The notes under the pieces: model-generated | Told to the model about the DNA's origin: nothing | The model's input: only the letters and a program-made list of their open reading frames with translations | Database searches by the model: none | Position numbers and translations under genes: made by a program | In this document: positions 29,302-55,325 of the stretch, in pieces | Layout of the letters: each line of letters begins with the position of its first letter | How positions within the stretch are numbered: the first letter of the stretch is position 1 | Source: Bacteroides sp. | GTDB lineage: Bacteria > Bacteroidota > Bacteroidia > Bacteroidales > Muribaculaceae | Assembly (NCBI GenBank): GCA_014801585.1 | Contig: JAAVDX010000032.1 | Coordinates: 1 to 64,000 of the forward strand | DNA: 64,000 nt | Direction of reading: 5' to 3'

Positions 29302-30264
29302 TCAGTTGCCGCCGATTACTACGTAGGTGTAACCCTGACCGACGGGGACGGTAGTCATATTCATGCCCATCTTGCGGAGCTCGCGTTCGAGCGGACGGAT
29401 GAACGACTCCATTGTCTGAGCCTTTACCTTACCTGATTTCGAACCGAAACCACCTGCTGCTACGGCTGCGAACAGGGGGAAACGCACCTGGTCGAATACG
29501 AGAGATTCGCGGCTTTTCTGCTTACGGTTGACATTGCCGTCGACAGCGTGTTCGGAGATCCAATACTCGATGTAGTCGGCAAGTTCACCACTTTCGCCGT
29601 CGACCTCAACATCGTTTTCAAAATGTAGCGGGCAATCGTCGGCAATCTTGAAAGTGATTGAACCTTCACGGCCATTCTTTTCGATATCGGAGAAAGCGAG
29701 GTCGATTTTCTGGCAGAAATTGTCGATGAAACCGCCTACGACCTCCTTCACGAGGATGGGAGTCGGTGCGGAAGAAGCGCTTGACGTGCCGATATCTCCA
29801 TGGAGAATCTTATTGGAAGCCGCATCGATAGTCTGCGCCTTGAATTCGATAAACTGGCGGACTCCGCCCTGCTTGTTGAGACCGAGTTCGACGATAAAGT
29901 CGCAGCCGACGTTGCGGGTTACGAGGTCGCGGTCGCTTTCCTGCACCATGCCGTCATTCTTCGAAGTGACAGCCATGTTGTAGGCACCTTCGGTATGGAT
30001 CTGCTTGAGTTCCTGCTTGAGAGAGAACATCGGATAACCCATTTCAGCGAGGTAATCGCCCATTACGGCGATTGCGCCATCCATATCGGAGTCGGCAAGC
30101 GCCTTCTCATAGTCGGGAGTGTCAGTGCCCGGGAGGACGTAGCCCTTACCGCGACACCAATCGTCGGAAGGAAACACCATCAGCTTCGGCTTCTTGGCGT
30201 CGGCTGCATAGACAGATGCTGAGGCTGCGAGAAGGAGCATCAGTGAGAGAAAGATCTTTTTCAT
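29302..30264 (-). CDS. Exported DUF6175-like protein
   Basis: Signal peptide MKKIFLSLMLLLAASASVYA; KPKLMVFPSDDWCRGKGYV N-terminal motif. Confidence 0.6.
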   Translation of the reverse strand: MKKIFLSLMLLLAASASVYAADAKKPKLMVFPSDDWCRGKGYVLPGTDTPDYEKALADSDMDGAIAVMGDYLAEMGYPMFSLKQELKQIHTEGAYNMAVTSKNDGMVQESDRDLVTRNVGCDFIVELGLNKQGGVRQFIEFKAQTIDAASNKILHGDIGTSSASSAPTPILVKEVVGGFIDNFCQKIDLAFSDIEKNGREGSITFKIADDCPLHFENDVEVDGESGELADYIEYWISEHAVDGNVNRKQKSRESLVFDQVRFPLFAAVAAGGFGSKSGKVKAQTMESFIRPLERELRKMGMNMTTVPVGQGYTYVVIGGN

Positions 30265-30325
30265 TATGTCAATATTGATTTCTGAGTTAGGTTAGTTTTA
30301 GAGAGTGATTTAGCCGGCATGAGGG

Positions 30326-51496: not shown

Positions 51497-52765
51497 TCAG
51501 ATGAAGTTTTCGAACTCCCACGCCGAGAGATGCCTTACTCCGTCGCGCATCTGGAAAGTGTCTTCGTCCATCGTGACGAGAATTTTTTCTCCTTCTCCCT
51601 TGATGCCTTTGAATGCACCGTATTCTCTTTCTGCAGTCGGATGGTCTTCCACACTGTATGCTACCTGCACATATAGGATTCGTCTCCCCATAGTAGCGAC
51701 AAAGTCAACTTCTGCATTGTGCAGCACACCGGTATTTACTTGATACCCTTTTCTTAACAATATCAAGTAAACTATTCCCTCCAGAGTATACCCCCTGCCA
51801 TAGGCTGCCGTTGGAAACAGATAATTATGATAAGCTTGATCGTTGGGATAGATCTTGAAATTACCTCCAAGCAGTTCTTTTCCTGAAATATTATAGCGTA
51901 CCGATTTATGCAATAAAAACGCTTCCTGAAGGTATTCTATATATGATGCGATCGTGTCGTAACTTGCTTTGCTGCCGCGTCCTTTCATATATTTGACAAT
52001 ACCTGTGACCGACACCATGCTGGATGCGTTATTGACAAGATATGAAAATATACGCTCAAGCAAGGCGACATCTTTTATGGCGTATCTCCTTACAATGTCT
52101 TTAAGCATTATTGAATCCCTGAGACCTTCCACATATCGTTGCTTTACGTCGAAATCAGGCAGATTGATGAGTTCCGGCAGTCCACCGTCTTTAAGGTATT
52201 TCAGAAAAGATGTTCTGTTTTTTTCTTCATTCATGACTCCGATATATTCTGAAAACGAGAACGGATACACCGTCATGTCGACGTATCTGCCTGACAGCAA
52301 GGTTGCCAGTTCTCCCGACAGTAGACGGGAGTTGGATCCTGATAAGAAGACTTCGGTTTCGAAAATATAATCCTGGGATAAGGAATTTACAGTCTTTTCC
52401 CATCCGTCGATGTCCTGTACTTCATCTATGAAGATATGCACTCGGCCATTGACCGCAATCTTTTTGCGATACGTCTCAATTAATTTATTTAGATCATTGT
52501 GCGTCTGTAGAAAATCAAAAGCGGATAGTTCCCTGTTGATGAATAGTATATTACGTCTCTCTACCCCCATGTCGATCAATTGCATGGCCAATTGCCGCAT
52601 GATATAGCTTTTGCCTGAACGCCGTTGCCCCGTAAGGATTTTCACCAGCCTGTTACCGGTAAATTTGATAAGTTTTTCTGTATATTCTTTCCGTGGATAA
52701 CCTATCGGGAGTATTTTCCCGTCCCAAATATTATAGGGTGCTATTTTATTGAGAATTTCGTCCAT
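51497..52765 (-). CDS. AAA ATPase with DUF4143 C-terminal domain
   Basis: ILTGQRRSGKSYIMRQLA (P-loop), VHIFIDEVQDIDGWEK, FLSGSNSRLLSGELATLLSGRYVDMTVYPFSFSEY; start MDEILNKI at 52765. Confidence 0.9.
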   Translation of the reverse strand: MDEILNKIAPYNIWDGKILPIGYPRKEYTEKLIKFTGNRLVKILTGQRRSGKSYIMRQLAMQLIDMGVERRNILFINRELSAFDFLQTHNDLNKLIETYRKKIAVNGRVHIFIDEVQDIDGWEKTVNSLSQDYIFETEVFLSGSNSRLLSGELATLLSGRYVDMTVYPFSFSEYIGVMNEEKNRTSFLKYLKDGGLPELINLPDFDVKQRYVEGLRDSIMLKDIVRRYAIKDVALLERIFSYLVNNASSMVSVTGIVKYMKGRGSKASYDTIASYIEYLQEAFLLHKSVRYNISGKELLGGNFKIYPNDQAYHNYLFPTAAYGRGYTLEGIVYLILLRKGYQVNTGVLHNAEVDFVATMGRRILYVQVAYSVEDHPTAEREYGAFKGIKGEGEKILVTMDEDTFQMRDGVRHLSAWEFENFI

Positions 52766-52910
52766 ATTCAATTTTTTTACAAATATAATAAAAAAATTCG
52801 TCCAAAGACGAATTTTTCGACATAATAAGTGATTTTTTCGAGCATGGACGAAAATTATAGTATAATGTTTGAAATTTTCGAGTACAGTCGAAAATTCCGG
52901 TGGTTTGCTT
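52751..52910. promoter_or_regulatory. Four-unit 40-bp-periodic palindromic array over the promoter and start of the AAA ATPase gene
   Basis: AATTTTCG-N8-CGAAAATT-type inverted repeats centred at 52804.5, 52844.5, 52884.5; degenerate unit centred at 52764.5; -7 box TATATTTG on minus strand at 52780-52787. Confidence 0.85.
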
Positions 52911-53016: not shown

Positions 53017-53024
53017 TATCTTTG
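53017..53024 (+). promoter_or_regulatory. Bacteroidetes-type -7 box (TATCTTTG), no long CDS immediately downstream
   Basis: ccgttgTATCTTTGcatcgg. Confidence 0.45.
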
Positions 53025-53573: not shown

Positions 53574-55325
53574 ATGGAAAACGAAGCATTGCTGAAAGAA
53601 TGTGTCGAGCGCGCTCAGAAGTGGCTCGGCCCTCAGTATGATGAAGAGACCCGCAAGGAAGTGCAGGCTCTTCTCGACAATGAAGACAAGAGCGGTCTGA
53701 TCGACGCTTTCTACAAGGATCTTGAATTCGGCACAGGCGGCCTGCGCGGTATTATGGGCGCCGGCACCAACCGCATGAATATCTATACAGTAGGCGCTGC
53801 GACTCAGGGCCTGGCCAATTACCTGAAGGACTGCTTCAAAGATCTGCCTCAGATTTCCGTAGCCGTAGGCCATGACGTGCGCAACAATTCCCGCAAGTTT
53901 GCCGAAATGGTGGCTGATATCTTCTCCGCCAACGGTATCAAGGTCTACCTCTTCGATGGTTGCCGCCCCACTCCGGAAGTTTCTTTCGCCATCCGCCATC
54001 TCGGCTGCCAGAGCGGCGTCAACATCACTGCTTCCCACAACCCGAAGGAGTACAATGGCTATAAGGCATACTGGAGCGACGGCGCTCAGATGATCGCACC
54101 CCATGACGTGGAGACTATCGCCTACGTCAACGCAATCACTTCCGTCGACCAGATCAAATTCACTCCCAATAAGGATCTTATTCAGATCATCGGTAAGGAT
54201 GTCGACGAACCGTATCTGGAGGCTATCCATGGTCTGTCGCTCTCGCCTGAGATCGATGCCAAGCACGCTGACATGAAGATTGTCTACACCCCGATCCACG
54301 GCACAGGTTCTACACTGATGTATGATTCTCTCGCTCGCTGGGGATTCAAGAATATCATCCATGTGCCCGAGCAGGACGTGCAGGATGGCAATTTCTCTAC
54401 CGTAGTATCCCCCAACCCGGAGAATGCGGAAGCGATGTCGATGGGTATTGCAAAAGCCAAGGAGACAGGTGCAAGCCTCGTGCTCGCTTCCGACCCTGAC
54501 GCTGACCGAATCGGCCTCGTGGTGCGCGACAAGAACGGCAACTATCAGCTCGTCAACGGCAACCAGATCGTAATGATCTTCCTCTATTACCTCATCACCC
54601 GCAACGTTGAGCTTGGCAAGATCACCGGTAAGGAATACTGCGTGAAGACCATCGTGACTACAGAGACTATCAAGCGCATCGCTGATGCCAACAACGTAAC
54701 CTGCTACGATTGCTTCACAGGGTTCAAATGGATTGCCGACGTAATGCGCAATCTTGAAGGCGAAGCCCGATATCTCGGCGGCGGCGAAGAGAGCTACGGC
54801 TTCCTCGCTGAGACTTTCTGTCGCGATAAGGACTCTGTATCGGCTATCTCGCTGATGTGTGAGATCGCTGCATGGGCAGCAGAACGCGGTCAGGACCTCT
54901 ACGAAATGCTTATCGATATCTATGCTCAGTACGGATTCTCCCGTGAGCGTGGCGTAAGCGTAGTGCGTCCGGGCAAGACAGGTGCGGATGAAATCGTGGC
55001 TATGATGAAGAACTTCCGCGAGAATCCTCCGAAGGAGCTGGCAGGGTCGCCGGTAGTCGTAATCAAAGACTATGCCGATCTTAACTGCCGCGACCTAAAG
55101 ACAGGGGATGTAGAGAAGATGAACTTCCCTACTACTTCCAACGTACTTCAGTTCTTCACAGAGGCCGGTGACAAGGTATCAATCCGTCCTTCCGGCACCG
55201 AACCGAAGATCAAATTCTACATCGAGGTGCGCGAAGACATGCCTTCTAAGGAGGCTTACGAAGAGACCGTAGCCAAGGCTGACGCTCACATCGATCAGGT
55301 ACTCGCTGACCTCGGAGTAAAGTAA
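53574..55325 (+). CDS. Phospho-sugar mutase (phosphoglucomutase/phosphomannomutase family)
   Basis: TASHNPKEYNGYKAYWSDGAQ, DPDADRIGL, GGGEESYGFL, RPSGTEPKIKFYIEV. Confidence 0.95.
   Translation: MENEALLKECVERAQKWLGPQYDEETRKEVQALLDNEDKSGLIDAFYKDLEFGTGGLRGIMGAGTNRMNIYTVGAATQGLANYLKDCFKDLPQISVAVGHDVRNNSRKFAEMVADIFSANGIKVYLFDGCRPTPEVSFAIRHLGCQSGVNITASHNPKEYNGYKAYWSDGAQMIAPHDVETIAYVNAITSVDQIKFTPNKDLIQIIGKDVDEPYLEAIHGLSLSPEIDAKHADMKIVYTPIHGTGSTLMYDSLARWGFKNIIHVPEQDVQDGNFSTVVSPNPENAEAMSMGIAKAKETGASLVLASDPDADRIGLVVRDKNGNYQLVNGNQIVMIFLYYLITRNVELGKITGKEYCVKTIVTTETIKRIADANNVTCYDCFTGFKWIADVMRNLEGEARYLGGGEESYGFLAETFCRDKDSVSAISLMCEIAAWAAERGQDLYEMLIDIYAQYGFSRERGVSVVRPGKTGADEIVAMMKNFRENPPKELAGSPVVVIKDYADLNCRDLKTGDVEKMNFPTTSNVLQFFTEAGDKVSIRPSGTEPKIKFYIEVREDMPSKEAYEETVAKADAHIDQVLADLGVK

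Follow-up and report, generated by a model that had tools for sequence, protein, structure and literature searches.

The window, as we call the whole 64,000-nucleotide stretch of DNA analyzed here, carries between a YicC-like and a phosphomannomutase-like gene an ATPase gene whose promoter and start codon are overlapped by a regularly spaced array of palindromes (Table 1). The gene had been read from the sequence as coding for an AAA/DUF4143 ATPase, an assignment borne out by Pfam matches to AAA_14 (105.5 bits) and DUF4143 (44.6 bits) above their curated cut-offs (27 and 28.1 bits, respectively). The protein also matched the PADLOC model PDLC04787 for PDC-S01 (431.2 bits, residues 22-418). A search of PDB sequences and of NCBIfam gave no match. 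There was no regulator gene adjacent, as the sequence-only reading had noted: none lies between the YicC-like and the phosphomannomutase-like genes, nor is there a small antitoxin gene of the type II toxin-antitoxin kind.

Table 1. Features of the ATPase gene and of the array upstream of it (positions within the window).
Feature	Positions	Strand	Basis
AAA_14 + DUF4143 ATPase gene (422 aa), a PDC-S01 candidate and the proposed array reader	51497..52765	minus	Pfam and PADLOC matches
Winged-helix region, residues 205-307	51845..52153	minus	AlphaFold2 model, pLDDT 90.7
Turn and recognition helix, residues 265-281 (helix 269-281), with D270	51923..51973	minus	Model and alignment
C-terminal PD-(D/E)XK-like domain, residues 320-422	51500..51808	minus	Model; D354 and Q367 retained, no canonical Lys
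Operator unit 3 (distal), AATTTTCGAGTACAGTCGAAAATT	52873..52896, centre 52884.5	.	Exact palindrome, 40-bp step; present in orthologues
Operator unit 2, TTTTTTCGAGCATGGACGAAAATT	52833..52856, centre 52844.5	.	Palindrome, 40-bp step; present in orthologues
Operator unit 1 (promoter-proximal), AAAATTCGTCCAAAGACGAATTTT	52793..52816, centre 52804.5	.	Palindrome, 40-bp step
Operator unit 0 (degenerate), on the start codon (52763-52765, minus)	52753..52776, centre 52764.5	.	Full palindrome in relatives
TATATTTG, Bacteroidota-type -7 box of the ATPase promoter (assumed)	52780..52787	minus	Sequence; kept in orthologues

In the predicted fold (pLDDT 90.7), the AAA+ core is followed by a winged helix (helices 233-245, 253-262, and 269-281 plus the wing) and a PD-(D/E)XK-like domain, DUF4143 being a member of the PD-(D/E)XK clan. 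The nearest solved structures were SSO1545 (2fna) and PABY2304 (2qen), both with 16-17% identity and a TM-score of about 0.5, together with Orc1/Cdc6 on origin DNA (2qby and 2v1u), which was among the best matches with a low TM-score and has the same AAA+ plus winged-helix fold. An active PD-(D/E)XK site, with an acidic residue and an intact (E/Q)xK motif, was not found, as the lysine position is occupied by A, S, C, T, or L in the members aligned. Because the canonical lysine is absent from them, catalysis by this domain appears doubtful in the clade of the window protein, where it may be structural or non-catalytic.

The palindrome array and the ATPase promoter

The three TTCG-N8-CGAA palindromes begin at 52797, 52837, and 52877, with a step of exactly 40 bp, and their centres lie where the sequence-only reading had placed them. 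A degenerate fourth unit had also been described on the ATG. Its equivalent in several Bacteroidales (e.g., L058, L071, L089, and L120) is a full palindrome reading ATG GAC GAA, these codons making up one half of it, which validates the degenerate unit 0 in the window. Likewise present were the two promoter-like sequences, namely TATATTTG, taken as a -7 box by analogy with Bacteroidota promoters in general, and TATCTTTG at 53017-53024 on the plus strand. Unit 1 is located ca. 21 bp upstream of the -7 box and thus over the expected -33 region, in a register relative to TATATTTG that is identical in four relatives. The dyad sites overlap the promoter of the ATPase gene itself, the placement expected of an autoregulated operator. 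The additional suggestion that the array controls a diverging plus-strand transcript found no support, given that TATCTTTG lies ca. 125 bp past the last unit and the next plus-strand gene begins at 53574. The idea that a step close to four helical turns would leave bound dimers on the same side of the helix holds approximately, 40 bp being equivalent to 3.8 turns at 10.5 bp per turn.

Lone TTCGN8CGAA sites are not rare, with 2.45 expected by chance per 64 kb. When dyad symmetry and period were scored jointly, the window array reached 13.3 versus a 99th-percentile null of 6.3. Throughout the 2.2-Mb genome from which the window derives, no other TTCGN8CGAA pair at ca. 40-bp spacing was detected; the other TTCG-class site is a terminator-like hairpin and not an array, and the array is single-copy. 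A minus-strand terminator-like hairpin with a trailing T-rich run was also predicted at unit 1, which would be consistent with RNA hairpins (an attenuator or terminator) in the leader. We consider this very improbable: units 1 to 3 are upstream of the -7 box and hence outside the expected transcript, no Rfam match appeared up to an E value of 0.1, and the direct repeats found in related clades (see below) form no obvious hairpins.

Distribution of the arrays across the ATPase family

Among 111 genomes of the genus, orthologues at 79-80% identity were found in two others, with the array at the same place in both. Palindromes and spacing do persist in these close relatives that retain the gene; in the aligned upstream regions, arms, spacing, and TATATTTG box are conserved, while the spacers drift. 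This pattern bears on whether the units could be ordinary intergenic repeats (REP or MITE-like) present there by chance. Arrays that do look REP/MITE-like exist in Parabacteroides and Dysgonamonadaceae, with up to eight TTCGTA...TACGAA-type units at 41 bp (L062, L068, L072, L082, L097, L099, L100, L124, L126, and others), and we discarded them as an unrelated intergenic repeat family. They differ from the window array in motif and spacing and have no link to the ATPase. With its arms kept between drifting spacers, its fixed position relative to promoter and ATG, and its single copy in the genome, the window array is extremely unlikely to be of that nature.

The sequence-only reading had proposed looking for such palindromes upstream of DUF4143 ATPase genes in related genomes; TTCG-type arrays do lie immediately before AAA_14/DUF4143 ATPase genes across bacteria and in an archaeon. 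Scanning named genomes for TTCG pairs yielded at least 116 loci. Among the matches listed, the ATPase gene was directly downstream in 38 of the 63 loci with window-class arrays at 39-40 bp (one of them on a viral contig), versus 3 of the 54 with other TTCGN8CGAA pairs (Fisher p 1e-10). The remaining 25 of these 63 listed loci had no ATPase directly downstream, several being cut by the end of the stretch. Hosts among the matches listed included Bacteroidales, a Thermoplasmata archaeon, a MAG of the Gammaproteobacteria, and Firmicutes, for example Veillonella and Peptoniphilus. The claim of a multi-site operator at the ATPase promoter is thus well supported, since the array is kept in orthologues and across phyla and overlaps promoter and start codon. 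A viral contig (L169, IMGVR_UViG_2881051715) carries two TTCG-type palindromes 40 bp apart at 2550-2605, just upstream of an 86-aa open reading frame; they may represent a copy of the operator carried by a phage.

ATPase genes selected solely for protein homology were also preceded by repeats, but of other sequences. A self-match statistic over 87 ATPase upstream regions peaked at lags of 40 (summed Z of 22) and 41 (Z of 18), versus a Z of -0.2 at lag 40 in 344 control upstream regions of other genes, where signals elsewhere were mainly codon-related multiples of three. Most repeats are 24-26-bp dyads with a TA-rich centre, A/T-rich ends, and a half-site of roughly TA-N4-AAA (examples are TACCAAACAAAA, TAATGAAAACTT, TAACCGGAGATT, and TACTTTGCAAA; the window's class is TANTCGAAAAAT), and their sequence is specific to the ATPase clade. 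The commonest position of the last unit was centred on the ATG (17 of 105 significant arrays). Within the nearer clade, significant arrays preceded 51 of the 62 members from the genus and 12 of the 16 genes of other phyla; the corresponding figures in the next band were 0 of 16 and 7 of 20. More distant clades had periods of 33 or 23 bp, related clades carrying iteron-like direct repeats of these two lengths, and paralogues from other phyla showed 40-, 33-, and 23-bp periods by clade, the archaeon included. Along a tree of non-redundant genes, the period changed 8 times versus 30 when shuffled. The three DUF4143 ATPase genes of the window genome themselves have periods of 40, 33, and 23 bp, and paralogues with different operators coexist in other genomes too (e.g., L024, L174, and L178 in G102). 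At the level of sequence, these comparisons establish that the array is made of dyads in register with promoter and start codon, that it belongs to the ATPase family across phyla, and that both sequence and period of the array vary from one ATPase lineage to another.

Homologues were also present on plasmids and phage-like contigs. Out of ten named plasmid or phage homologues, those of P. distasonis and Peptoclostridium had clear TTCG-like dyads and that of R. albus a different dyad, the rest being weak, as were many two-unit arrays in named plasmids. Some genomes contained 18 to 29 DUF4143 ATPase matches each (G112, G121, G122, and G130), with 20 in the 1.4-Mb genome of the Thermoplasmata archaeon G112; that of G121 measures 1.2 Mb. 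A 33-bp array of about ten units (GTAAAATTTAAATCGCCATATTTTCGGCTCTCC) was seen at L378 1600-2000 (G000:C29, near 29900-30300); it resembles those before P33-type ATPases, and no DUF4143 gene was found within the 3 kb read.

The candidate reader of the array

We compared operator similarity with local protein similarity in 9-residue windows across 49 non-redundant genes, holding overall identity constant. Windows within residues 265-276 ranked first of all protein windows (partial r of 0.54; permutation maximum of 0.31). When TTCG members were removed, the helix was no longer singled out, and residues 198-211 came first, barely above the permutation level; the co-variation between helix and operator rests on the contrast of TTCG versus non-TTCG members. 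Residue D270 was found in all 51 TTCG-type ATPases and, after removing redundancy, in 30 of 30 versus 6 of 69 others, although most TTCG members in this comparison were collected by their motif. A tree built without the recognition-helix region requires operator type to have changed at least four times. D270 and the operator shift together in about 3.7 of the 4 independent pairs, which are too few to reach significance.

TTCG-type arrays also exist apart from the ATPase. Two with exact 40-bp spacing precede an ECF sigma factor/TonB-receptor operon (G079:C1:93104-93199, L049/L087, and G102:C1:62422-62517, L051/L131), and another with the same spacing is near an Rpn-type gene (G082:C8:57179-57274, L050/L083). 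Others are located before or near unrelated genes (L127 and L159, Prevotella-type; L118 and L140), each pair occupying a similar type of locus in two genomes. A search for a TTCG-type ATPase in the orphan-array genomes G079, G102, G082, and G027 found none. The arrays of G079 and G102 share 24 of 24 arm bases, with spacers 75% identical. Such orphan arrays could be remnants or co-opted operators, or another reader could target them.

The sequence-only reading had left two options for the regulator, the ATPase itself and an unlinked factor, and the evidence favours the first. A host transcription factor encoded elsewhere, binding the arrays and controlling the ATPases, would explain why TTCG-type arrays precede other genes, such as the ECF sigma operon in G079 and G102, why G082 has an array and no DUF4143 ATPase of TTCG type that we could find, and why arms and spacing are kept in the G079 and G102 arrays while spacers drift. 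However, the same factor would be needed identically in Bacteroidota, Firmicutes, and an archaeon for one motif and one gene family. This explanation is further disfavoured because ATPase paralogues of the same genome have different operators and because the window genome has no second array of the TTCG class; the operator also appears to track the ATPase's recognition helix. We regard it as unlikely. Autoregulation is favoured, in turn, since operators differ between same-genome paralogues and by ATPase clade, appear to follow the ATPase's own recognition helix, and, in the window genome, form a unique array. We consider it probable, judging from these sequence relationships, that the ATPase binds its own array and autoregulates, most plausibly as a repressor.

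In this autoregulatory scheme, the winged-helix domain, as dimers or a larger oligomer, would bind the dyads through helix 269-281, in which D270 may read the CG of TTCG. With units 0 and 1 occupied, the start region and the -33 region would be covered, keeping the gene repressed while the ATPase is bound, and cooperative contacts between dimers would set the 40-bp step. If the nucleotide or oligomer state then changed, perhaps during infection, the complex might be released and expression raised. The direction of control, repression rather than activation, is suggested by the geometry only.

The fold allows another reading, in which the array is a putative origin- or iteron-like assembly site where the Orc1/Cdc6-fold ATPase nucleates an oligomer for replication, maintenance, or storage, with promoter control being secondary. 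The resemblance to Orc1/Cdc6 bound to origin DNA, the iteron-like 23- and 33-bp direct repeats of related clades, and the homologues on plasmids and phage-like contigs are all compatible with it. Nevertheless, the units are in register with promoter and ATG, there are up to 29 copies per chromosome, and no replication genes were found in the immediate neighbourhood of the window gene, and we think such a role improbable.

Upstream repeats were also seen before ATPase_2 genes (PF01637, SSO1545-type), with short periods that differ by clade, of 15 bp (L338, L339, L346, L353, and L340) or 28 bp (L359, L347, L354, and L365), and the habit may extend past DUF4143 to this family. A much wider, speculative version of the autoregulatory scheme, to which we would give only a low probability, is that in DUF4143, and perhaps ATPase_2, whole winged-helix AAA+ families possess private phased iteron arrays (15, 23, 28, 33, or 40 bp, as set by clade) that serve as assembly sites for an ordered ATPase oligomer. 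Each array would then act both as a repressor platform and as a storage or sensing device, holding an NLR-like protein inactive on its own gene until infection disturbs the complex and releases it.

Relation to known systems

PDC-S01 (AAA_14 plus DUF4143) is a candidate phage-defence family to which the window protein belongs by profile match, its role in defence being putative. It is reported to rank fourth in frequency among prokaryotic defence systems and to have undergone cross-domain transfers (PMC12988326). The operator array adds to the family definition, of which it forms no part. PDC-S01 ranks among the commonest candidate defence genes of prokaryotes, and the literature consulted on it contained no description of a mechanism, an operator, or regulation. 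An array apparently matched to the protein suggests a role for the winged helix, and the promoter array would provide a ready readout of when the PDC-S01 system fires. Dozens of natural protein-operator pairs become available for reading the recognition code, and the array can serve as a sequence signature for locating promoters and start codons of such ATPase genes. Private operators might also explain how one cell can hold many paralogues free of cross-talk.

SSO1545 (2fna) and PABY2304 (2qen) share with the window protein an AAA+ core followed by a winged helix and a C-terminal domain, and we know of no DNA target for either; SSO1545-type ATPase_2 genes differ in their upstream periods of 15 and 28 bp. 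The likeness to Orc1/Cdc6 and origin recognition boxes lies in the matching fold and in an AAA+ protein with a winged helix reading repeated sites, archaeal origin boxes being known near the initiator gene. However, the repeats of the window family overlap promoter and start codon and occur in many copies per genome. At the autoregulated operators of toxin-antitoxin and restriction-modification systems, a defence-type gene has its promoter covered by phased palindromes that its own product reads; here, in contrast, there is one gene, and the putative reader is an AAA+ ATPase and not a small antitoxin or controller protein.

Two described regulators come close in other respects. IniR, a mycobacterial regulatory ATPase that binds a promoter as a transcription regulator, has an N-terminal AAA+ domain predicted to be SSO1545-like, but besides a MalT-like domain it is reported to carry a separate DNA-binding domain at its C terminus and to activate another operon, and the text consulted describes neither a PD-(D/E)XK-like domain nor a private array (PMC5760070). 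The RptR-controlled island, as far as its abstract shows, has defence genes controlled at palindromic sites by a separate repressor gene (PMC12255303), whereas in the window family the apparent reader is the ATPase, which is itself the putative effector. No report of such arrays was found in the literature on DUF4143, AAA_14, SSO1545, or PDC-S01 within a search that covered mainly openly accessible papers. Autoregulation through a palindromic operator is already known as a type of device. What is probably new, within the literature searched, is that a very abundant candidate defence ATPase is preceded by a clade-specific phased array of its own and probably acts as its own regulator.
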